Below are positions 2,889 through 14,650 of a stretch of DNA of 19,571 nt, piece after piece (the stretch's first letter is position 1; the number at the start of each line of letters is the position of its first letter). The DNA lies in contig JAHLKH010000331.1 of the NCBI GenBank assembly GCA_025526915.1, positions 1-19,571 on the forward strand, written 5' to 3'. The notes under the pieces are model-generated. The model had not been told where the DNA came from and did no database searches. It worked only from the letters and a program-made list of their open reading frames with translations. Source of the stretch: Entophlyctis helioformis. Lineage: Eukaryota; Chytridiomycota; Chytridiomycetes; Chytridiales; Chytriomycetaceae. Position numbers and translations under genes: made by a program.

Positions 2889-4472
2889 TCACTCGAGAGA
2901 GACGTACTTGTGGAGGTGCTCGGGGATCGCAGCCAGCAGGCCCTTGGACTCGAGCCACGACTTGGAAAAGAGCCGCGACTGGTAGCGGTACGCGCCGTCG
3001 CAGATGATGGTGGCAATCGTGTGGCCCGGGCCCAACTTCTTGGCGACCTGGACCGCAGCGGCGACATTGAGTGCAGAGGACGCGCCGACAAACAGGCCCT
3101 CCTCGTCCAGCAGCCTGTACACCATGGCAATGCTCTCTTCGTCGGGGACGTGCACGGCATCATCCACGAGATCAATGTCCGGCTGCAGGTTGTCCGTGAC
3201 ACGGCCCTGGCCAATGCCTTCGGTGATGGATCCGGTGCCGGTGCGCTCAAGGACGCCCGTGCGCTTGTAGTTGTACAGGACGGAGCCGGGCGGGTCGGCC
3301 AGGAACACCTTGACACGGCCGGCCGACGTGTCCTTGAGGTAGCGCGTGATGCCGGCCAGCGTGCCGCCTGTGCCGGTCGCGCAGGTAAAGGCATCCACCT
3401 TGCCCTGGGTCTGTTCCCAGATCTCGGGGCCTGTTGTTTCAATGTGTGCCTGTCTGTTTGCTGTCTGTGCACACGGCGCCGGGCGTGAGCAATAAAGGAG
3501 AAGGGGAAGGGCAGATCAGGACACGGCTCAGCAAGGCAGACGCACATTGTCAAACTGGTTGGTCCAGACGGCGTTGTCGAGCGTTGCGGCGTACTCCTTG
3601 GCCTGGTGGTTGTAGTTTGCGGGATCGGTGAACGGGACGGCCGGCACCGGACGCACATCGGCGCCGAGCATGCGCAGGAGATCGATCTTCTCCTTCGACT
3701 GGGTGTTGGGCATGTAGATGACGCACTTGTAGCCCTTGGAGCGGCAGATGTGCGCCAGGCCGATGCCGGTGTTGCCGGCCGTGCCCTCGACGACGGTGCC
3801 GCCGGGCTTGAGCGAACCGCGGCGCTCGGCGTCCTGCACAAGGAACAGAGCGGCACGGTCCTTGACCGAGCCGCCTGTTCAGCCGTCGATGGCGTGATTG
3901 GCGTGCACGCATCACGTCAGTCGTGCCAGTCGTGCCAGTCGTGTCAGTCGAGTGGGCTTGGAGCAGGTCGGGTTGGCAGACCATAGGCAGGCTGTATGCA
4001 GACAGACTATAGGCAGACAAGCAGGCAAGCAAGCAATAGGCAGCCGCACGTGCCTGGGTTCATGAACTCGGCCTTGCCCAGAATCTCGCAGCCGGTCTCC
4101 TCGGACAGGCGGTTGAGGCGGATGAGCGGCGTGTTGCCGACGGCGCCGGTCAGGCCGCGCACGACTCTCTGCGCAGCGACGACGGGCGTGATGGACATTT
4201 GGCTTGCTGGTTGACGCTTGCTGTAGGTTGTCGTAGCTGTAGGTTGTAGATTGAAGCGAGGGGTGGGCAATAGGGCGAGGGAATGCCGGCAAACCGCCGG
4301 CAAATGGCCCGACATTCAAACAATTGCCAAGCGTTTTGGAATTGGATTCGACCCGAGAGGCGACGAATGCAAGCCAGCACATCACACGATGGAAGGTTCG
4401 AGTCAGCAAAGAACATGCGACGACAGGTGGGCGATGCACATCCACATGCATGAGGGACTTACCTTGCACCAT
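2889..4472 (-). CDS. Cysteine synthase (O-acetylserine sulfhydrylase), PLP-dependent
   Basis: The enzyme makes cysteine from O-acetylserine (or a related activated serine) and sulfide using pyridoxal phosphate. Exons on the minus strand are 4463-4472, 4054-4236, 3546-3874 and 2889-3464; together they give 366 codons including the stop with no frame break. Seen in the protein: the [15 protein letters not shown] opening, NPGGSVKDR with the Schiff-base lysine, the [13 protein letters not shown] substrate loop, [11 protein letters not shown] binding the cofactor phosphate, and [14 protein letters not shown] near the C-terminus. The 10-nt first coding exon (Met-Val-Gln) ends at a strong GTAAGT donor and splices in frame to a basic, Ser/Thr-rich stretch, which may be a mitochondrial presequence. 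The alternative start is the internal Met at 4198, which makes the first intron a 5'UTR intron. The second intron (3875-4053) has a GC donor. The gene is convergent with the antiporter, 131 bp between stops. If translation starts at 4472, the upstream gene's stop codon is only 28 bp away. Confidence 0.9.
3911..3950. repeat. Short tandem repeat, unit about 9-10 bp (GTGCCAGTC)
   Basis: About three to four imperfect copies of a unit resembling CAGTCGTGC lie inside the GC-AG intron of the cysteine synthase gene. A looser repeat of ATAGGCAGAC-like words follows at 3983-4045. Both are non-coding. Confidence 0.7.
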
Positions 4473-4485
4473 TGTTTGAACAATG
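4470..4485. other. Perfect inverted repeat (7-bp arms, 2-bp loop)
   Basis: CATTGTT, then TG, then AACAATG form a perfect palindrome immediately downstream of the large nuclease gene (stop at 4501) and over the proposed cysteine synthase start codon. It could be a hairpin in the nuclease transcript's 3' end, a protein-binding palindrome in the cysteine synthase promoter, or chance. In Fanzor and TnpB systems the guide RNA usually comes from the 3' end of the nuclease locus, so the position is worth noting; no function is demonstrated. Confidence 0.45.
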
Positions 4486-4500
4486 ATGTGATAAGTGACC

Positions 4501-7500
4501 CTATTGGTCGATCAGGAGGTGCCCTGATTCAAAGTGTTGGTGGTCAAACAAGTCACTGTGTGGGATGCAGGTCAAGTGACTTGAGGGCAGGCTGTCTGCG
4601 TGCTGGTCGCTGCTGGATGACGGATGGACCGTGTCTTGAATGCTGCTGTACAGCACGTCTTGAATACCACAGGACGGCAGCATGATCTGGTCCCATGAGG
4701 CCACATGTGACTTGAAGGGAAATGGAGCATGACTTGCACGCTCCTGGATGTCAGCCTGCATTCTTGCAATGCCTGCAAGGTACTCTGGTGTGGCTGGATC
4801 ATCACTGGCTGGCGTGTGCGTCAAGTAGAGCGGCCGGTGTCCAAAGAGCAGATGCCACAGTGCAACCATCCCGATGTTGGTGGCTCCAAGCACGTCGCGG
4901 TGGTAGACGGTCGTGCAGTCTGTGCACTTGTAGTGTCGCAGGTTGGTGCGGTTCTCATATGGGATCCGCTGCTTGCACTGTGGGCACATCTGGCTGGTCA
5001 GGTTCTCGTTGCAGCGGTAGATCTGTGTGTGTGTGTGTGTGTGTGTATGATCGTGTGTCAGTTGGTGCACAGATGGATGGATGGATGGATGGATGGACAG
5101 TGTGGAATCAGACGCACATAGGCATATCCAGACGACCGTAGATGCCTGATGAGAAACCTCTCAAACACAGCGTGCCGGCCACCTTGGCCTGTAAAGTCGA
5201 TGCCAAATGCCCACACAACGGGAACGTCCTTCTCTGTTGGCTTGTCACAGCGGCCTTGAGACGCAGCAGATGCGCGCTCTCCAGTGGTCGAGCCTGCCAG
5301 ATTCATGATGCCCTCAAGAGCATTTCCGCGAATAGACATGCTGTTGCTGCGCTTGGTGAACCGCTTGGCCTTGACCTTCTGTGGAATGCCATGCCATGCC
5401 ATGCCATGCAGTGTGATCAGCAGGCAATCAAGCAGCATGGCGGCCATGTCAATGGGCATCCAGAAACAGAGAAAACATACCCGTGCATTCAGGAATGGCG
5501 TGCAGTATGCATGACAGCGCAGATCCCAAAAGGCTCTCTCACCAGGCTTGACGTTTGGATCGGCATGCTTTGCTGTCTTGAATGCAATGGCCTCGTGGAC
5601 GTCCACTGCCTTGGCATATCGATTGTTGAGCCTGGCACAAGAGGCAGGCACTGTGAGTTGATCTGGTCAAGAGTGCGCGCGGCAGAGTCATTGCATGCAT
5701 ACCACCGCTGAAAGATGCGCTCAGCATGTGCCATGCCAGAGGCGAGCACATAGTTGGACTCGAGCGTATATGAAAAGTCTCTGAGATCAACCAAGATGCT
5801 GGACGCGCCATACAGGTACCGCTGGCCCCAATCAAAGCTGACAACGCGAACAGTCTGGTAGCCCTTGTTGGTGAACAGGTTGTTGGCTTTGATGATGTCA
5901 TGCAATCGCTGCGAGGCGTAAAAGTTGCGCTTGCCCTGTCATGCCATGGCATGAGTGAGGAATGCACAATGCATGTGCACCAATGCGCGAGTTTAGCATG
6001 CAAGTGGCTTACAGGATTGGGCGTGTATGGCTTGGCGGCCGACGGGTTGGCTGGATTGGCGGCTGTGGATGGCATGTCAGTCGGTGTGGACAACAAGTGC
6101 GCGTCTGGATTGGCACAGCAACTCACATGTGCCATCAAGGCCATCATCCAAGCCATCATCCAAGCCATCATCCAAGCCATCATCCAAGTCATCATCATCA
6201 TGAGCAACCCACGGCTGCTTGCCTGAAGACATCAGATTGTATGCAGAGCAAGGCAGCAGTCAGAATCCATGTGTGCACCAAAGCATTCAAGCATGCCACA
6301 TACAGCAAGGCGACTCTGGACGGTTTGTGCAAAAGTCCAACACTGTCTGGCAGATGCTGTATCCATCAGTCTTGATGCTGCCCAGTCTGACTGCCTTGGT
6401 TGGTCGTGCTGGTGGCAGAGCATCAATCGCAGCCTGAATGTGCTTCTTGCGCTGCTCATCATCCAGCTTGAGACAATCAGCTTTGAGCATTGCCATGGCT
6501 GTGGCATCTGCTTCAGCCTGGGCATTAGCTGTGTCCATCTCTGTCTTGGCCTCAGCTGGCGTTTGGAAGCGACGTGTATCCGAGGCGAGTCCAGGGAGGA
6601 GGATGTCAAGGATGGCCAGCTCCTTGCTTTTGCTGAAGGCCTTCTCAATCGGGTCATTTGGCAACTTAAGGGCCAACTCGGCATCATTGTAGCCTTGGAA
6701 CACAGTGCAGTGTTAGCATCAAATGGCATTGGCATGGCATAGACAAATGTGACCTACCAAGTGCAGCCAGGAGCTGCTCTCTCAGTGCTTGGAGGACAGC
6801 ATTGTCCTTGGTGGGTACACGATCCTTCTTTGTCCCCATCACAGCCCAAAAGAGGGTGGCCTCTGTGATGAGGACAAAGGGGTCACAGCTGGCTGGCTCT
6901 GGGCATAACTTGATGGCTGTGCCACCTGCAAGATCACAGAGCTCCTTGAACTTACAAATGTCTGATGTTGACGTGCTGCGCACAATCGCCTGAATCGGAT
7001 GCAGCTCTTGTGGGATCTCGATGGTGTCCCCATCCTGTGTGGCTGGTGGTGTGGTGTTTGTGGCATCTGTGGCAGCAGTCTTGTCCTTTGGCCTCTTGGA
7101 TGTGCTGCCATCAGTGGCCAGCAGCAGCTGTGATGCAGTCCGCTTGAGACTCAGGGCAGGAGGAGCGACATCCTGGGCAGCGTCCTGGGTGGTGTCCACA
7201 CTCTCTTGGTTGTTGATGGGCCCCTTGCACCTTGCTCTCTTGCGTGTCGGTAGGCTGGATGCAGTGTCCATGGCAGCAGTGCGCTTGGCGACCTTGGTGG
7301 TCTTGACTGGCTTGAACATGGCATTGACCCATGCCGCAATCTGCTCGGAAGTTGCAGTGGGCATCGCACGGTGGGCCGCAATCGACACAAGCTTCGACCG
7401 GCTTGAGATAAAGTGTGTAGCAAGTGTGCTGCTCACCTCCCTTGCCAGGTTGCTGAAGATCTGGTGGTCGCAAGCCCGCACAAGGTGTTGACAAGCCTGT

Positions 7501-8567
7501 ATGGCACAGCTGCCTGCTGTGTGTCGGCCTGCTGTGCATCGGCTGGGAGCAAGCTTGCCCACCACATGTCTAGATGCCGCGCACGAGTCTGCTGCTTCTT
7601 GGCCGGTCGACGTGCGCCTGCCTTCATCTCGGCCTTCCGTGTGGTGGTCCGCATTGCGCCTGCCTGTTGCGCATCGCCAGTGTCCATGTCAGCCTTGATC
7701 GTGTCGGCTGGTGGTGCGGCTTGGTCGGTCATGCTGGCCAGCGTCCAGCTGCGGTGGATCATGAGCTGCATAACCGTAACAAGCCATGCGTTGAGCTTGA
7801 GCATATCCACCCGTGGCTTGGCCATCTGCTCGCCTGTAAGGACAAATGAGAGGTGCCGCAGGATGCAGGCCACAGATGTCTGGCCAGCAGACTTGCTGGT
7901 GATGAGCATCGACAGCAAGTCATTGGGTGTTGGCACTGCTGGTGCTGCTGGTGTGCTGGTGCTGCTGGTGCTGCTGGGGCTGCTGGCTTCTTGGGCATCT
8001 TTTGCGTCTTTGGCGTCTTGTGCGTCTTTGGCTCGTCAGGCTTCTCAAAGAGACAAAGCTTGAGTGTCGTTCCCGCTGATAGTTGCACTGGTGACCCAAA
8101 TGAAGGGAGCTTGCCCTTGCAACTGTACTGACTTGGGCCGTACATCGCATGCGCAGTAATGTCCGTCTCGAGGATGCATGGGCCGGCCATGAGTGCGTTG
8201 CCAATGTCGTCGAGGTCCTTGAGGCTATCAAGACTCAGAAAGCAATGCCCGCTCTGCTCTCCATGGGTCCACTCGTATATGTGGTACATCGGGGGAAGTG
8301 GCATGTCCGGGTTCAGATCAAGAAGCTCCTCCAGGATGGCACCGATTACAATGAGTCCAGCATGGCGTATGCCGACGGTGAATGAGTAGATCCGCGCGAT
8401 GATGTCCTCGATGAGTTGGCAGCGTGTCCAACCCATCGGCAACCTGCTTGCATGAACACCAAAGACTGGGGCACTCTGCAGGTGACTTGACAACATGTCC
8501 TGCACACCATGCCAGCCTGCAAGTCAGTACATGCAAAGCCATGCAGGCAGGCAGGCAGGCAGAATGG

Positions 8568-8606
<39 letters not shown>

Positions 8607-11600
8607 AATGGCAATCCTGCCACTTACCTTCAGAAGCACTCGCATGCCAGGATGGTCAGGCATGTCCTCTCCATGTTGATCCAGCACGTCCTCATTGTGT
8701 TGATCAGATGCATTCCCCTTGGCTTGTTGCACTTTGCCATTGATGGCTGCAGCGAGTGTCATGAACCATCCTGTGATTGTGCGGCCCAGCTTTTCGAGCT
8801 GCAGATGCAGTGCAAATCGACTCCCAGCAACCCATCTGTGGCATAACATGCATGTCAGCAAGCATCTTCAAGTATTGCAGTGTGGCATACACAACTTACG
8901 TCTTGTCGCTCTCTGATGCAGCTGTTTCAGTCTGGCGGTCTTGCCGGCGTGCACTCTCCTTGTTGTTGTCAATGGTCTTGTTGATCACAGCATCTGCAGC
9001 TTCCTTTTTGCGGTTCTTCTCGTACGTGGCCTTCCTGGTTGCTGAGAGTAGGAGTTGTGCCTGTTGAGGTCCAATGCACCATCAGCATTGTGTGCAATAT
9101 GTCCAAAATCACAAACAGTGCATGTGGACTGACCGTTGTCTTGTTGTCAGCAGATGGATCAACATACAAGACCTTGCTGGCAGCCACGCAAGCATGCTCA
9201 TTGTGGGAGGGGCCAACTGGAGTGGATGCATCCAACTCAGCCTGTTGGATGTAAAATCAGTGACTGTGCAAAGTCAACACATCCATACACAGCAAGCAAA
9301 GTTGAAGACATACAGCAGATCGCTTGAGGATTGATTCCAGAATGGCGACTGCCTCTTCCCGCTTCTTGCCAAGTGTTGACAGATGGAGATCAGGCAGGCC
9401 GTGATCCATGGGATGTGTCAGGCGTTCCAGCCACTCCAAAGCCTTGATCTGTATGTCCACAAATTTGGAGAGCTTTTTCAAAGAGATGCCTGTCCGGTGG
9501 TGGTGTCGACCCTTGCGTCCACCTTCCAAAAGAGTGGTGCATTCAGACAAATGTGCTGTGAGTACAGAGTGTGGCATCATCCAACAGCAGTCTCAAAGTA
9601 CCTGGCGTTGCTGTCTTCCTGAATGGTGGATATGCAAGCTTGTTGAACTGTCTGCGCAGCTTTGATGCAACATCCTGTCCAACAAGCAGTGGATGAGTGG
9701 GATGTTTCAAGGCAAGGAATGCACATGCATCCAGTCATGCAACAACATACATGTCCATCACGAATGATCTTATTTCCTTCGTTGAACTCGGTGTGCATTT
9801 CTGCTGCAGGAGACTTCTCGCGTACAATCCCAATGAGCTCTGCACTGGCTGTCTTGCTGATCTCTGCCAGAACGTCGCGGCCAGTGAATCCGTCGGTGTT
9901 GCAAGCGACGCGATCTGCTGCGTGTAACAGAACACAGTCAACAGCAACTGGACATCCCTTGACTTGTTCCAGCAAAGTGTGAGTCGCTTGGTGTTGATGA
10001 TGCCTTCGACTTGCTGCTTGACATCTTCCTGGGAGAGATGGACAACATCAGCGCCTTGCTTGCCTTGCTGGGCCTTGGGGTGAACAAGAACACAGTCGCG
10101 ATGTAGCTGGCAGCTGCATTGCAATCCAATCAAACACAGAATGCCAAGTCAGTTATACAACACACACCAAGCAATGTCATGCATGTGTACCTTGTGGTGG
10201 TTGTGCCAACAGCTGTGCTGCTGTCAATGGCATGTAGGGATGGACAGTCAGTAGAGTGTTGTGCATGCAAATGCATCTGTGCCACCATGCCATGACCAGT
10301 CAAACAAAATCTTGCCTCTGCGCTGGTGCATCACCAGATGGGCTGCTGTGACTGGATGGGGATGTGGTCTCACCAACAGAGCTTCCTGATTCATCGTGGT
10401 GGACAAAAACGCCAAAGGCGTTCAGGAAGCTCTTGGTGAGGCCACACCACCATCCAGCAACAACAGATCCTTGCAGTATGCATCCTTGATTGCATTTGCA
10501 AATGCAACTGCCTTGTCGCGGTCATGGAGGTGGGCACAGTAGTCACTGGCTTGATGCCTGCCTTTCTGGCTGCGGCCTCGACAAACTTGTTGATGAACTT
10601 GACAGCGGCAGGTAGACCTTCCATGTCATGGGAGTGGCAATGTGCATTAGTCATCATCACAACATGGATGGCAAGCAAGAGCAGAGTCATGCAATGAACA
10701 TACCGCGACCGTAGCAATCATGATAGTCATTCTTGGCCATGGAGGCGGCCAGCTGACATGCCAGGGGGAAATTGTACAACCGTAAGGCTGCTGCAGTAGA
10801 TGCAGCGCCACTGTAGTTGTACAATCGGACCTGGCTGACATGTCCCTTCTGCATGCGTGTCAGGATGACAGGGCAGCATCCAGTACAATGCACAACCAGG
10901 TCCGAGTCCCCAGCAATGACAGCCATTGGCATGCCATTGCTGTGGGATGCAGGTTGTCAGCCATTGATCATAAACAACAGATACCATGGTGATGAATACC
11001 TTGGCTCGCGTGCATAGAGGGCAGCCTTGCGGGCGATGCAGACATCAGACTCGTTGTCACACTGATGGACAGTGTGTTGCGATGATGGGCCGAGGATTGC
11101 CGCGATTGCCTCAGCAATGTTCTTCTTGTCTGACCGTGTAAGAGTGAAGGAGCCAAGTAGTGCCTTTCTCTCCTTCCTGCAGCATCAACTAAAAGTTAGA
11201 ATCATGTGTATGAAGCACAAAGAGGCAGACATACCAAGACAAACGTCCAGACCGTCCATGCTTGCGGCGCCAGTAGATGGATCTCTGGATGGCGGCCACT
11301 GATTGAAGTACTCGAAGAGCACGGCTGCTATATGCGCGCTTGATTCCCGTCTCGGCAAGCCTGCCATCGACATGGAACTGTAGGACCCGCCCGTCACCGA
11401 CCGACTTGAGAAACGTCTTGAGAACAGGTGCAACGATTGTCACCCACTCATCAACAGACGACGGCCGGTGGAAAGCGGCCAGCCCACGTAGCGGTCCATA
11501 GAAGATGCTCAGTGCATCAACATGGATGACACTGGATGCACTCATGTGTGGTTGCAGTGGTGGTGGTGGTCGTGGCGGTTGTGGTGGCGGTTGTGGTGGT

Positions 11601-12024
11601 CGTCGTGGCGGTTGTGGTGGTGGCGGTTGTGGTGGTGGTGGTGGCAGCGGATACAGTCGTCGAAAGGCTGGTGGCCGCAGAGGTGCTGGTGCCATCAGAA
11701 GCGACGGCAGATGGGGCAGAAGAGGTGGTGGTGGCAGCAGAGGAGGCAGTGGCAACCGTAGGTGTGAAACGGCGATGCTGGCAGCTGTGGCTGCCTTGGA
11801 TATAAGTCCAGCAGTGATGGTGGCTGCAGCAGCGACGGTCGAGGAGTTGCACTGGTGTCATCCACAGCGATGTCGTCGACGTCCATGTCGTCGATGGCAG
11901 GGTCGCCGTGTTGCTTGACCTCTCCAAGTACCGTGGAAAGTGCGTCGGACAAGCTTGCACCGTCGCCGAACACGATGACGTAGCCAAACTCCTTGAGGAG
12001 TCGCAGCCAGTCAGGGACTCCCAT
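4501..12024 (-). CDS. Giant two-nuclease protein: N-terminal XPG/FEN1-like domain, C-terminal Fanzor/TnpB-like RuvC and zinc ribbon
   Basis: Minus-strand exons by frame and splice sites: 11853-12024, 11235-11790, 11000-11176, 10704-10939, 10316-10617, 9751-10113, 9602-9674, 9314-9555, 9134-9241, 8900-9060, 8628-8835, 7437-8499, 6758-7401, 6304-6693, 6127-6222, 6013-6062, 5703-5935, 5481-5631, 5118-5378 and 4501-5022. About 5.7 kb of coding sequence gives about 1,900 residues. Phases match at nearly every junction. The doubtful spots are inside 10316-10617, near 9970-10020, near 7940-8140 and the 35-nt gap at 7402-7436; each needs a further short intron or hides a one-base error. The start Met is set by the XPG-type MGVPDWLRLL opening. 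The N-terminus carries all the acidic residues of the 5' nuclease site; the C-terminus carries RuvC motifs and a four-Cys ribbon. The middle (about 450-1,400) is helical and charged, with NLS-like basic clusters, and is not recognised. Likely role: DNA cleavage in the nucleus for a mobile element, possibly RNA-guided (inference). Two adjacent genes instead of one fusion cannot be excluded without a transcript. Confidence 0.65.
5024..5047. repeat. (TG)n microsatellite
   Basis: About 12 TG units sit directly against the splice acceptor of the last exon of the nuclease gene. On the minus strand they form an (AC)n tract ending in CAG. A six-copy ATGG tract follows at 5073-5097 in the same 95-nt intron. 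Confidence 0.9.
5073..5097. repeat. (ATGG)n microsatellite
   Basis: About six ATGG units in the intron at 5023-5117 of the nuclease gene. Non-coding. Confidence 0.9.
5387..5409. repeat. (ATGCC)n pentanucleotide repeat
   Basis: About five units of ATGCC lie within the intron at 5379-5480 of the nuclease gene, just upstream of its acceptor on the minus strand. Confidence 0.85.
6141..6199. repeat. Coding 12-bp tandem repeat (CATCATCCAAGC)
   Basis: Four copies of a 12-bp unit are read on the minus strand as an acidic Asp-Asp-Gly-Leu repeat in exon 6127-6222 of the nuclease gene. The run lies between the TDG motif and RuvC-I. The frame is maintained through the repeat, and copy number probably varies between alleles. 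Confidence 0.8.
7935..7987. repeat. Hexanucleotide-type (GCTGGT)n repeat in the nuclease gene
   Basis: GCTGGT and GCTGCTGGT units encode Ala-Pro runs on the minus strand. The two flanking reading frames do not line up across this tract: the frame ending in Lys-Lys-Pro-Ala continues in another frame as Pro-Thr-Pro-Asn-Asp. This means either a slippage indel or an intron whose acceptor lies in the CAG-rich repeat. Confidence 0.75.
8543..8606. repeat. (CAGG)n microsatellite array
   Basis: Two uninterrupted CAGG/GGCA tracts are separated by AGAATGG and followed by a second AGAATGG. They lie inside intron 8500-8627 of the nuclease gene. The repeated AGAATGG-plus-tetranucleotide layout suggests a local duplication. 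Confidence 0.9.
10570..12024 (-). other. XPG/FEN1-like 5' nuclease domain (N-terminal part of the large gene)
   Basis: The spliced N-terminus reads like an XPG-N plus XPG-I pair. It begins MGVPDWLRLLKEFG. Then come an acidic stretch, a Pro-rich insert of about 90 residues, VIHVDALSIFYG (Asp near residue 149), QFHVDGRLAETGIKR (Asp near 199), QCDNESDVCIARKA (Glu/Asp near 285 and 287), VIAGDSDLVVH (Asp near 313 and 315) and NDYHDCYGRGLPAAVKFI, matching the FEN1 Asp plus helix-hairpin stretch. These positions and spacings match the two-metal acidic residues of FEN1, XPG and EXO1, so the site looks catalytically complete. The oddity is the poly-Pro insert between the start motif and the first catalytic Asp, where FEN1 has about 20 residues. 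Family members cut branched or flapped DNA; the substrate here is unknown. Confidence 0.75.
11552..11651. repeat. (GGT)-rich imperfect repeat encoding poly-Pro
   Basis: GGTGGT/GGTGGC runs encode a poly-proline linker on the minus strand in exon 11235-11790 of the nuclease gene. The linker joins the start motif to the first catalytic Asp of the FEN1-like domain. Confidence 0.85.
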
Positions 12025-12712
12025 GCTGCAGCAAGCGGTGTTGAGAGCGTCTGTGTGTGTGTGTGTGCAAGGGTTGGTGGTCAGTATCAGCATGCAGAGC
12101 ATGCAGGGTGTGCAAGGACATGCAACAGCCAGCAAGCAGAGACTTACGAGCTGGCTTGCTGGGCAAGAGGGCCGAGCGGTTGTGGGATGGGCAAGGTTCA
12201 ATGAGCGGCGGCGGTGTGCTGGCCTGTGTGCACTTGGCTGGCTGGGCGAGTGGTGGTGTCGTTGAACGAGAGGGCAGGCAGCGAGCAGCGGCGATGTGCT
12301 TGCTGCTGTTGGCTGGCTGGCTGAGCGGCAAGCGAGAGAGGTCGGTGGTGCGACGAGCGACGACGAGCAGGCCTGGGTGTGTGCACAGGCGTGGATGTCG
12401 GTGGTGCCAAGCAGCAAGCAGCGTTGCTGATGCAACAGCAGCTGCAGAACGAGAGCAGCAGAGAAAACAGGCAAGTTTGAGCAAGTCGCCGTTGCTGGTT
12501 TGCTGATGGCGGCGGTGGGCAGCGTCGTACGGCACTCGGTGCCGCCGTTGCTGTGCTTGCATCGCGCAGTGTCTGAACCTTGCAAGGGCTCTCTCGATCG
12601 ACCAATCACAGTGATCCCACCAAGATTGACCAATCACAGCGATTCCATCAAGATCGACCAATCACAGCGATCCCACCACCAGTGGCAGTGGCGCTCTGGC
12701 AACAGAGTTGGA
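12025..12712. promoter_or_regulatory. Intergenic bidirectional promoter between the nuclease gene (-) and the accessory gene (+)
   Basis: These 688 bp separate the two divergent start codons. The stretch holds a (TG)n tract at 12051-12067, GCTGGCTGGCTG-like runs near 12315 and three phased CCAAT repeats at 12595-12676. A minus-strand open frame runs through part of it, upstream of the chosen Met at 12024. It resembles nothing I know, and the XPG-type start motif argues that coding begins at 12024. I see no clear TATA box. Confidence 0.55.
12595..12676 (+). promoter_or_regulatory. Three phased CCAAT-box repeats, 28-bp period
   Basis: GATYGACCAATCACAGYGAT occurs three times. The CCAAT pentamer sits at 12602-12606, 12630-12634 and 12658-12662, exactly 28 bp apart. 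CCAAT boxes are bound by the HAP/NF-Y complex in fungi. The array lies 37-118 bp upstream of the plus-strand start and about 570 bp upstream of the minus-strand start, so it probably drives at least the plus gene. Confidence 0.7.
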
Positions 12713-14500
12713 ATGGACGAGCAACAGCCACCACATGCCGCTGTGCACCAGCAGGACGACATGGACGCAGCAGCCACCACAGAGCCAGCTCCCAGTCAAG
12801 CAGACCCACAGGTCATCGACCCAACAGGGAGTTTCTAGACTACGGCTTGGGCTTCCACTGCGACGATGGTTCATTTGAAAGCATGACACTGGAGGACAAG
12901 AAGAACCAAATACATTCGCTGCTGCCACTTGTCAAGCTCACAGATGGCCCGCGTAAAGGCGTCATATGCGTCCAAGTGTCTCGCCTCCCCTTGGTTCTGA
13001 CAAGCTTCATGCCAAGACGACTTGACAACAACGTCCCTGCTTTTGCCATCAAGGTGAAACTTGGCGGCCGTGAAGTATAGGTGGTGCCTCTTGACAGCAT
13101 CGACAAGCTTCTCGTCATGCTCCCATGCCTCGAAGATCCCAGCAATCCTGACATCGTGATGCATGGCATTGCATCCTGATCCCTCGTTCAAGAGCAGCGT
13201 CCTCCAACTCCTTGAGCACTATGCAAAGTACCGCGATCATCACAAGGTAAGTCTGATCACCCACAACGCACAATAAGCAGTGCAATCACTCCAAACCTCA
13301 CACGACAGTTTGCCGAGACGAGCGTCTTTGCAGCAGCCAACAACCAGAATCTGGGCATGCTTGCGACACTTGATCCAACAGCAGAGTTTGCAGTCCCAGA
13401 AGGAGCGACCTTTACGCACCTGTATGGTCGCGCGCTTACGTCCTATCCCGTGGAGCAAGTAAGCTTATAAACGGGCAGGCGACACACTCTCCTTGACAAT
13501 CAGCACTAACCATTGCATGCAACACAGCTGTTTAACGCGTGGCGAGACAGTTTACGACGGACTGGAAAGGGCCGGAATGACAAGTCAGACCTGGAAGAGT
13601 TCATGTCAGTCACACGACAGATGCAACTCATCTTCAAGATCAGGTGGATGGACGTTGAGCAGCGCGGATTCCTTGTTGAGCCATCCTCCAAATGCCGGTA
13701 GGATGTTCTCATAGGATGTGTATGCACTGATCGCACAGCAGACTGACTGCACAAACAGCACATACAAAACCTACAACAGATCATACAACATCTTTGTATG
13801 GGGATCCATCAGCAATCCCATCCAGAAAGAGTATGCTGTGTATACAAAGGCAGCCAGGACAGAGGTTGACATGAGTGGGCAGAATTGCCGCAGGCATTCT
13901 GTGTGTATCGCCTCGACAGTTCTCAAAGTCAGACCAATCCAAGCGCGATGCCTTACAGCAGCTCGATGATACGCAGCAGCTGGACGATACGCCGAGTGAT
14001 CCATCCAGTCCTCGTTGGTGAGCTCGCCTGCCTCTTGTGCGATGGCTGTCAACGTTGCGACTCTGTTGACACTGTGTGCCTTGACAATCTCGACGACGGC
14101 AAGGACCTTGCGGACGAGCCTGGACACCAACCGTTGCTGTAGCTGCCACGCCAACAGCCAGCCGCCAAAGAGCGTCAAGCAAGCGGAAGAGAGCAGCAGC
14201 AGATGCCAGTGCGTCTGTGTGGCTGTGACGTCGGTCGTTCGGACATTGCAGCAGGCCGCCTCAGCAGCACGCACAAGTGCGCCGCCTGGACGCAGAGGGA
14301 CAGCAGCTGCAACAGGCAATGGCAGGACAGTTCTTCGTGACACTACCAACACGCAGACAACTGCTGCCCCTGGGACAGGCTCGGCAGACCACAAGCCAGC
14401 GCCAAAGCGTCCACGGCTTGAGAAGGCATCGCTGCAGGCTGCTCAGAGTGACTGGGAATTCGGACAAGAATATGAATTGGATTCAAAAAGATTGGAAATT
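12713..14500 (+). pseudogene. Unrecognised multi-exon gene divergent from the nuclease gene; frame broken in places
   Basis: I do not recognise this protein. It starts Met-Asp-Glu-Gln-Gln with an acidic, Gln-rich N-terminus. Supported pieces are 12713 to 13246 (with breaks), exon 13309-13458, exon 13528-13697 and exon 13780 to 14017. The introns at 13247-13308, 13459-13527 and 13698-13779 are GT-AG and keep phase, so this was a real spliced gene. Breaks: a -1 step near 12830, an in-frame TAG at 13078-13080 where CAG would continue the frame, a +1 step near 13172, and -1 steps near 13870 and 13920. Recognisable coding stretches include LLPLVKLTDGPRKGV, LLEHYAKYRDHHK, LFNAWRDSLRRTGKGRN and QQLDDTQQLDDTPSD. 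Downstream, a frame to about 14599 includes a KPAPKRPRLEK nuclear-localisation-like cluster, but its splicing is unclear. Divergence from the nuclease gene suggests an accessory protein of the same element. It may be a pseudogene, or functional with sequencing errors. Confidence 0.45.
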
Positions 14501-14650
14501 GGATGCCAAATTGAACAAAATTCGAGGCAAACCAGCCGACCAATCAGGTGCCGGCGCAGGGTTCTCTATGGGAACGAAATCAATTACCCCCTCCGTTGAA
14601 GCTTGTTGTTGGTTAAACCGTCGACTTTTGGTTTGACAAAGTCAGACCCG

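Follow-up and report, generated by a model that had tools for sequence, protein, structure and literature searches.

A transposon gene of Entophlyctis helioformis that appears to join a 5'-nuclease domain to a Fanzor/TnpB-type nuclease

The window analysed here is the whole 19,571-nucleotide (nt) stretch of contig C331 of Entophlyctis helioformis; its coordinates are marked W, and other contigs, numbered genomic loci and deposited proteins of the species are marked C, L and P. Between an ATG at W12024 and a stop at W4501 on the minus strand, just where a preliminary description of this DNA had placed it, copy comparison confirms one spliced gene of ~20 exons and ~1,900 amino acids (aa). From the fit of fold and of seven carboxylates, its N-terminal half is predicted to be a 5'-nuclease superfamily domain (FEN/EXO1/GEN1/XRN fold), while its C-terminal half is predicted to be a TnpB/Fanzor-type RuvC nuclease that is probably RNA-guided. 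Judged by its copies, the gene belongs to a large family of 10.3-kb cut-and-paste-like DNA transposons, whose main cargo it forms; that it is one copy of such a family the preliminary description had not seen. The latter's interpretation as a FEN-Fanzor fusion is partly supported by the sequence comparisons, and its domain names call for a broader reading.

The retention of Fanzors by eukaryotic transposons needs explaining, because a cut by itself copies no element. If the fusion is real, a natural link to an end-resecting or flap-cutting nuclease would put the step from RNA-guided cut to repair-driven copying within one testable protein. It would also offer a ready-made architecture for editors requiring resection, with more than a hundred natural variants for comparison within one genome.

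Features of the gene (window coordinates):
4501..12024, minus: FEN-like plus Fanzor-like gene (protein-to-DNA alignment and earlier models)
11837..12024, minus: exon 1, MGVPDWLRLLKEFGY.., putative counterpart of the FEN-family MG[I/V] N-terminus; MG[V/L/I] starts likewise in L041, L033 and P0003
10704..11531, minus: FEN-like core, 3 exons (invariant residues in 5 subfamilies; structure model of P0001)
Codons W11518-16 (D), 11368-66 (D), 11052-50 (E), 11046-44 (D), minus: FEN-like catalytic residues, invariant in 5 subfamilies
Codons W10908-06 (D), 10902-00 (D), 10728-26 (D), minus: FEN-like catalytic residues, continued, invariant in 5 subfamilies
10316..10617, minus: exon encoding the helix-hairpin-helix-like terminus, GLPAAVKFI.., of the FEN-like domain (alignment; ratio of nonsynonymous to synonymous divergence, dN/dS, 0.15 for window versus L041)
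10218..10315, minus: GC-AG intron of phase 2 with donor AG|GCAAG.., an in-frame stop following after 5 codons (copy comparison; spliced in P0004)
10191..10217, minus: 27-nt micro-exon (TAVGTTTT) (alignment; included in P0004)
8628..10113, minus: linker exons 7-11, the least conserved part (alignment; dN/dS 0.45-0.55 for window versus L041)
6304..8499, minus: middle exons 12-13, no known family (alignment; Pfam)
5118..5935, minus: RuvC-like exons, RuvC-I Asp (SFDWGQRYLYG) at W5833-31 (alignment)
4501..5022, minus: last exon, carrying the alternative Glu at W5007-05, the C4 zinc ribbon, the Asp of ..YHRD at W4896-94 and the tail (Pfam PF07282, 1.9e-11; TNB place C331:4873-5028)

One spliced gene with two predicted nuclease halves

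Copies of the subfamilies were compared as genomic DNA, and gene structure was read from frameshift-tolerant protein-to-DNA alignment. The window gene has 19 introns, of which 18 are firm, and its alignment spans 1,923 residues and needs five frameshifts; exon 1 joins exon 2 across a first intron of 305 nt in a low-complexity stretch (W11850-11530), where the junction is a guess. All 18 introns, in identical phases, are common to the window, L041 and L042 despite only 58% identity to the window protein, which bears out the ~20-exon chain with agreeing phases noted earlier. L041 and L042 each carry one short extra gap-like intron and nonsense past the last conserved residue; the exon structure of L039 matches that of the window from exon 2 onward, with one extra intron, and that of L040 to about residue 1,110. 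Six introns of the FEN region, in phases 2,2,1,2,2,0, recur in 15 of the 19 copies aligned (the sixth is overlong in four of these 15; the deviating copies are L024, L031, L034 and L038). Of the earlier claim that phases agree at nearly every junction and that no compelling stop lies between the two ends, the open frame stands in the alignment, but there are five frameshifts and one GC-AG junction with a micro-exon.

Purifying selection between diverged copies is evident from dN/dS, which for the window against L041 lies at 0.15-0.67 in every computable block between both gene ends (the C-terminal tail could not be computed): the FEN-like part gives 0.23 and 0.15, the linker exons 0.45 and 0.55, the middle 0.27 and 0.35, exons 14-15 0.67, and the RuvC-zinc part 0.28. 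The underlying dS spans 0.27 to 2.2, the larger values being near saturation. Together, the common introns and phases, the frame that stays open save for scattered breaks, and these ratios support a one-gene fusion. The arrangement also recurs in the genome: among the listed places, 64 of 126 FEN-like ones are followed downstream by a TNB place on the same strand, no more than 15 kb away and in 53 cases at a distance of 4.9-6.4 kb, and only 3 pairs show any other arrangement.

In the N-terminal half, D9, D59, E145, D147, D174, D176 and D234 are invariant in 5 of 5 subfamilies and stand in family order, their correspondence to FEN1 positions having been set by inspection. The acidic FEN-like site described earlier comprises seven carboxylates, not five. 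For a paralogue, P0001, a second structure model had FEN1/EXO1/GEN1-type nucleases in Foldseek rows 1-24 and the 5'-nuclease fold in 46 of 50 VIA rows. The name FEN1 is nevertheless too narrow: fold and carboxylates fit the 5'-nuclease superfamily, and no XPG model rises above cut-off. As in the FEN1/EXO1/GEN1/XPG nucleases, there is an MG[I/V/L] start, seven ordered carboxylates, a DxD, an NDY..GxG end and the predicted fold; unlike them, this is a transposon protein without significant profile match, and its ExE pair has Asp in place of the second Glu.

The C-terminal half carries the TNB/OrfB zinc-ribbon domain PF07282 (E 1.9e-11, 44.4 bits versus a cut-off of 26.3), so that the profile search proposed in the preliminary description succeeded for the ribbon, with the XPG models below cut-off. 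In alignment columns read by inspection, the C-terminus matches D-X(125,275)-[TS][TS]XX-C4-X(5,50)-RD, the motif given by Bao and Jurka in the part of their text available (PMC3627910). An alternative Glu stands six residues ahead of the first CxxC (ENLTSQMC in the window and L041), a spacing that, in the available passages of PMC10711439, sets Fanzor apart from TnpB. RuvC-I reads FDWG in the window and L041 and IDWG in P0005 and P0011; according to the same passages, DPG at this site is near exclusive to Fanzors, though not absolute (PMC10711439). Three features thus agree with the Fanzor label, namely the alternative Glu, the C4/RD motif and the TNB domain; RuvC-I, being DWG rather than DPG, does not. 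NCBIfam TnpB models matched the ribbon only, below cut-off; a sequence search of the PDB with the C-terminus returned weak TnpB-like rows and no solved Fanzor; and in the middle 700 residues no Pfam family reaches cut-off.

The element, its ends and its copies

Within the 29.57-Mb genome (482 contigs) there are at least 126 FEN-like places and at least 150 places with a TnpB/Fanzor zinc ribbon (TNB). Both numbers are lower bounds, as 150 TNB places were scored out of 205 candidates and FEN exons gave 202 matches.

Features of the element (window coordinates):
4258..14593, no strand: whole element, ~10.34 kb, with imperfect terminal inverted repeats (TIRs) beginning GAGGGG (end alignments)
4249..4257, plus: left copy of a putative 9-bp target-site duplication, GATTGAAGC, 7/9 against the right copy
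14594..14602, plus: right copy of the putative duplication, CGTTGAAGC (by eye)
4258..4520, minus: 3' terminal block, candidate guide-RNA scaffold, with hairpin UGCCGGC..GCCGGCA near the end (88% mean identity, 29 copies)
12544..12678, no strand: repeat-rich block made up of GATCGACCAATCACAG units, upstream of the gene and shared by many copies
12717..14593, plus: second, divergent gene-like stretch plus element end; frame broken, no Pfam family

In 28 of 30 loci the left (3') end falls sharply at W4258; it is displaced in L066 and missing from L071. Matches to W13000-14700 in 38 other places (C331 and C14 set aside) stop at W14591-14594 in 22, at W14572 in 10 and elsewhere in 6. Compared by eye, the ends GAGGGGCAGGCAAT and GAGGGGT[A/T]GGCAAT form inverted repeats, 13/14 in C18 and 12/14 in C235. 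Eleven copies were examined by eye for the target-site duplication, which could be judged in 9, the end lying outside the fetched piece in C14 and C162: the two sides match almost perfectly in C235 (8/9) and fairly well in the window (7/9), similar stretches are present but shifted in C13, C95 and C121, and there is none in C2, C1, C130 and C18.

Divergence among the copies is mosaic. Window and L041 are 58-76% identical over W11530-6430 and 82-97% identical between W6130 and the 3' end, whereas L041 and L042 are 85-99% alike throughout. Because the introns of the 3' part are mostly alike as well (four of five in the window are 91-93% identical to those of L041 and 87-97% to those of L042, the last 73% and 77%), the similarity there looks like recent common ancestry rather than protein constraint. 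At the right-hand end, 22 other copies are 91-94% alike over at least 1.5 kb, across most of the W12717-14593 stretch, while in six of them the FEN exons are just ~60% identical to those of the window. As far as these comparisons indicate, element ends have been exchanged or homogenised between subfamilies around a diverged core, and the Fanzor part together with the 3' block behaves as an exchangeable module.

How the protein might act, and other explanations

The element ends, the copy family, the exon chain, the conserved catalytic residues and the purifying selection between diverged copies are plain observations. The reading that we build on them, and that we hold to be as apt to prove wrong as right, is that a transposon-encoded spliced protein unites a 5'-nuclease with a Fanzor/TnpB RuvC nuclease, and that an RNA-guided cut at the empty site, 5' trimming and repair together copy the element. 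The element is mobilised by its ends, as copies and ends show, and the fusion protein would be made, as the genomic evidence implies. Its RuvC half may be guided by an RNA whose transcription runs across the conserved 3' terminal block and on into flanking sequence, as the available passages on Fanzors describe for guide RNA from the element 3' end (PMC10432273, PMC10711439); with such RNA, the RuvC half would recognise the empty insertion site and cut it. The FEN/EXO1-type half might then, going by its predicted fold, trim or resect 5' ends at the break, after which another copy could serve as the repair template for the whole element or just for its ends. The homogenised ends would be a trace of such end-anchored conversion, with which they are consistent without proving it. 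It is tempting, if rather doubtful, to go further and see a self-contained RNA-guided cut-and-resect machine that biases repair to element copying and leaves as its footprint the swapping of ends around a fast-diverging core.

Several points weigh against this reading. Among the matches listed, 62 of the 126 FEN places have no TNB partner, and 86 of the 150 TNB places have no FEN partner. Structure prediction, likewise proposed in the preliminary description, gave the FEN-type ranking in the second model at a low predicted local distance difference test score (pLDDT, just 47.8) and without any Foldseek E <= 0.001, and the first model (pLDDT 43) had no FEN match in Foldseek. All Pfam XPG models fell below cut-off (best XPG_I_2, E 0.03, 14.3 bits versus 24.2); single-sequence and thin-profile searches of the PDB gave no FEN match for the N-terminal half; and FEN1 profiles, drawn from 80 archaeal FEN1 loci together with two typed FEN1, gave no significant hhalign result (Prob 0.1-0.3%), the register placing only 2 of 7 catalytic positions correctly. 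The zero in-frame stops of the window gene are partly by design, because the aligner penalises stops, and the alignment of every copy read has 4-6 frameshifts. Also, dN/dS reaches 2.63 for the micro-exon plus exon 7 in the close pair of window and L039 and 1.43 for the H3TH exon between L041 and L042, the C-terminal tail is not conserved, and deposited P0001 (349 aa) reads into the GC-AG intron, its FEN part ending at an intronic stop. In the 3' block, base-pair counts are near those of shuffled sequence and covariation is not convincing. Finally, the conversion trace would equally fit ordinary recombination.

Among other explanations, the one that survives best, although we think it unlikely, is that the fusion exists but its FEN-like half acts on RNA in the manner of XRN, trimming guide RNA, or processes transposon ends at excision, instead of resecting the target. 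XRN1, XRN2 and Rat1 are indeed among the fold matches, and TIR-type ends require processing; EXO1 and FEN1, however, outrank XRN in Foldseek.

We find it improbable that each element holds two genes, the first coding for a FEN-like protein on its own that stops at the TGA near W10300, the second for a middle-plus-Fanzor protein to which the intervening exon chain would belong. The question turns on the GC-AG intron at W10315-10218 (donor AG|GCAAG), which with the following 27-nt micro-exon connects the FEN part to the remaining gene. P0001 ends at that very TGA, the in-frame stop lies 5 codons past the GC donor in all 16 copies in which the intron is displayed, and the deposited models split the Fanzor half as well. 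Yet intron, micro-exon and phase-2 frame are kept in four diverged subfamilies, L024 and L031 have a GTAAGT donor at the same spot (by inspection), and deposited P0004 (C93) splices through, including the micro-exon with its acceptor 3 nt earlier and joining the FEN-like part onto exon 7. Stops shortly past the donor are, moreover, frequent in the gene's other introns, so they are not special to this one, and an intron-retention switch there was rejected.

Least probable is a dead lineage, an old fusion of which nothing but decayed copies would remain, with another element moving them in trans. For it speak the frame breaks, present in every copy read and in one case (W7462) common to the window and L039, the deletion derivative in C235 that retains both ends, and the lack of any transposase recognised by Pfam in the gene or the second gene-like stretch. 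Against it, near-identical copies point to recent movement, dN/dS for the diverged pair of window and L041 is under 0.7 wherever it could be computed, and most breaks of the window are missing from near-identical copies. Of its frameshifts (W10546, 10442, 9977, 7941 and 7462), the first two are in none of the seven near-identical loci aligned (six places, L010 being L040), W9977 is missing from L010, L011, L014, L015, L039 and L040, W7941 is missing from L039 and L040, and W7462 is common to the window and L039; three of the five are thus missing from all near-identical copies covering them. Some breaks may be assembly indels, because a host gene at W473-2757 of the same contig (Na/H exchanger, PF00999 in two stretches) changes frame too.

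Relatives and further observations

Within the literature searched, Fanzor/TnpB nucleases are known transposon cargo, and what appears to be new is the coupling to a 5'-nuclease domain, a combination not found in the available parts of the Fanzor literature, searched in part by terms within the texts. Protein searches gave relatives within the species only. The full-length query found no homologue among the best 7,990 candidates by shared words; the FEN alignment found 4 proteins at E <= 10 (best 7,999 candidates by shared words) and the Fanzor C-terminus 10 at E <= 0.01, all from Entophlyctis helioformis; since other fungal genomes were not searched, absence elsewhere does not follow. Among viral contigs, 14 pattern matches yielded zero confirmed cases, and an Rfam scan of the window found no family. 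Academ-type transposons are said to carry an XPG nuclease (a literature look-up found no paper on this) and would so have a 5'-nuclease domain in a transposon, as here; by contrast, no Academ transposase was recognised here, and a Fanzor half is present.

As far as the available passages go (PMC10432273, PMC3627910, PMC11423790, PMC10711439), Fanzor1 proteins (SpuFz1, GtFz1, PpFz1) and Fanzor-bearing transposons resemble the present case in being eukaryotic transposon cargo of high copy number, with a C-terminal RuvC and TNB/C4 ribbon, the alternative Glu and a conserved block at the element 3' end. By the same passages, they differ in size (633 aa in SPu-1-1p versus ~1,900 aa here), in splicing (a single ORF in SPu-1 versus ~19 introns), in having DPG where RuvC-I here is DWG, and in the N-terminal 5'-nuclease domain found here. 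MuDR-type Fanzor elements of Mucoromycota (ROr-4, PBl-3, MCi-4), as described in the available text of PMC3627910, share TIRs, 9-bp target-site duplications (putative here) and the lack of an encoded transposase, although the TIRs here are short and partly shown, and the duplication is convincing by eye in 2 of 9 copies.

Identity between subfamilies steps abruptly at W6130-6430. Over W11530-9675, comparison with L035, L033 and L041 gives identities of 0.61-0.82 for introns, 0.57-0.70 for exons and 0.42-0.53 for fourfold-degenerate sites, with almost no gaps; introns are mostly more alike than exons there, and far more so than the fourfold-degenerate sites, but not at W9601-8500 (introns 0.49-0.71). 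Intron constraint, escape of exons from silencing, or conversion may be the cause. In the 3' block, a hairpin UUCG[A/U]C was rejected as covariation, its key pair being unpaired in 17 of 29 copies.

The element ends 59 nt ahead of a cysteine-synthase-like ATG (W4198-4258), and of the other copies, L055 lies 14 nt ahead of the start of a SerC-like gene and L067 21 nt ahead of that of a GDSL-hydrolase-like gene (genes named by inspection). A preference for insertion close upstream of start codons was rejected: an ATG with 40 open codons was no more than 150 nt away for 23 of 27 flanks, and for 15-22 of 27 when windows were shifted. The derivative at C235:3081-8760 (L175 and L004), 5.7 kb long, has both ends, the middle-plus-Fanzor part and the start of the FEN part (by inspection), as expected of an internal deletion. 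At C14:143198-160347 (L044, L073, L163) the flanks of the window recur, as does ~98-99% of its sequence where compared, with a FEN-TNB gap of 12.3 kb versus 5.7 kb; this locus probably represents either the second haplotype or a duplicate, enlarged by an insert of ~6.7 kb.

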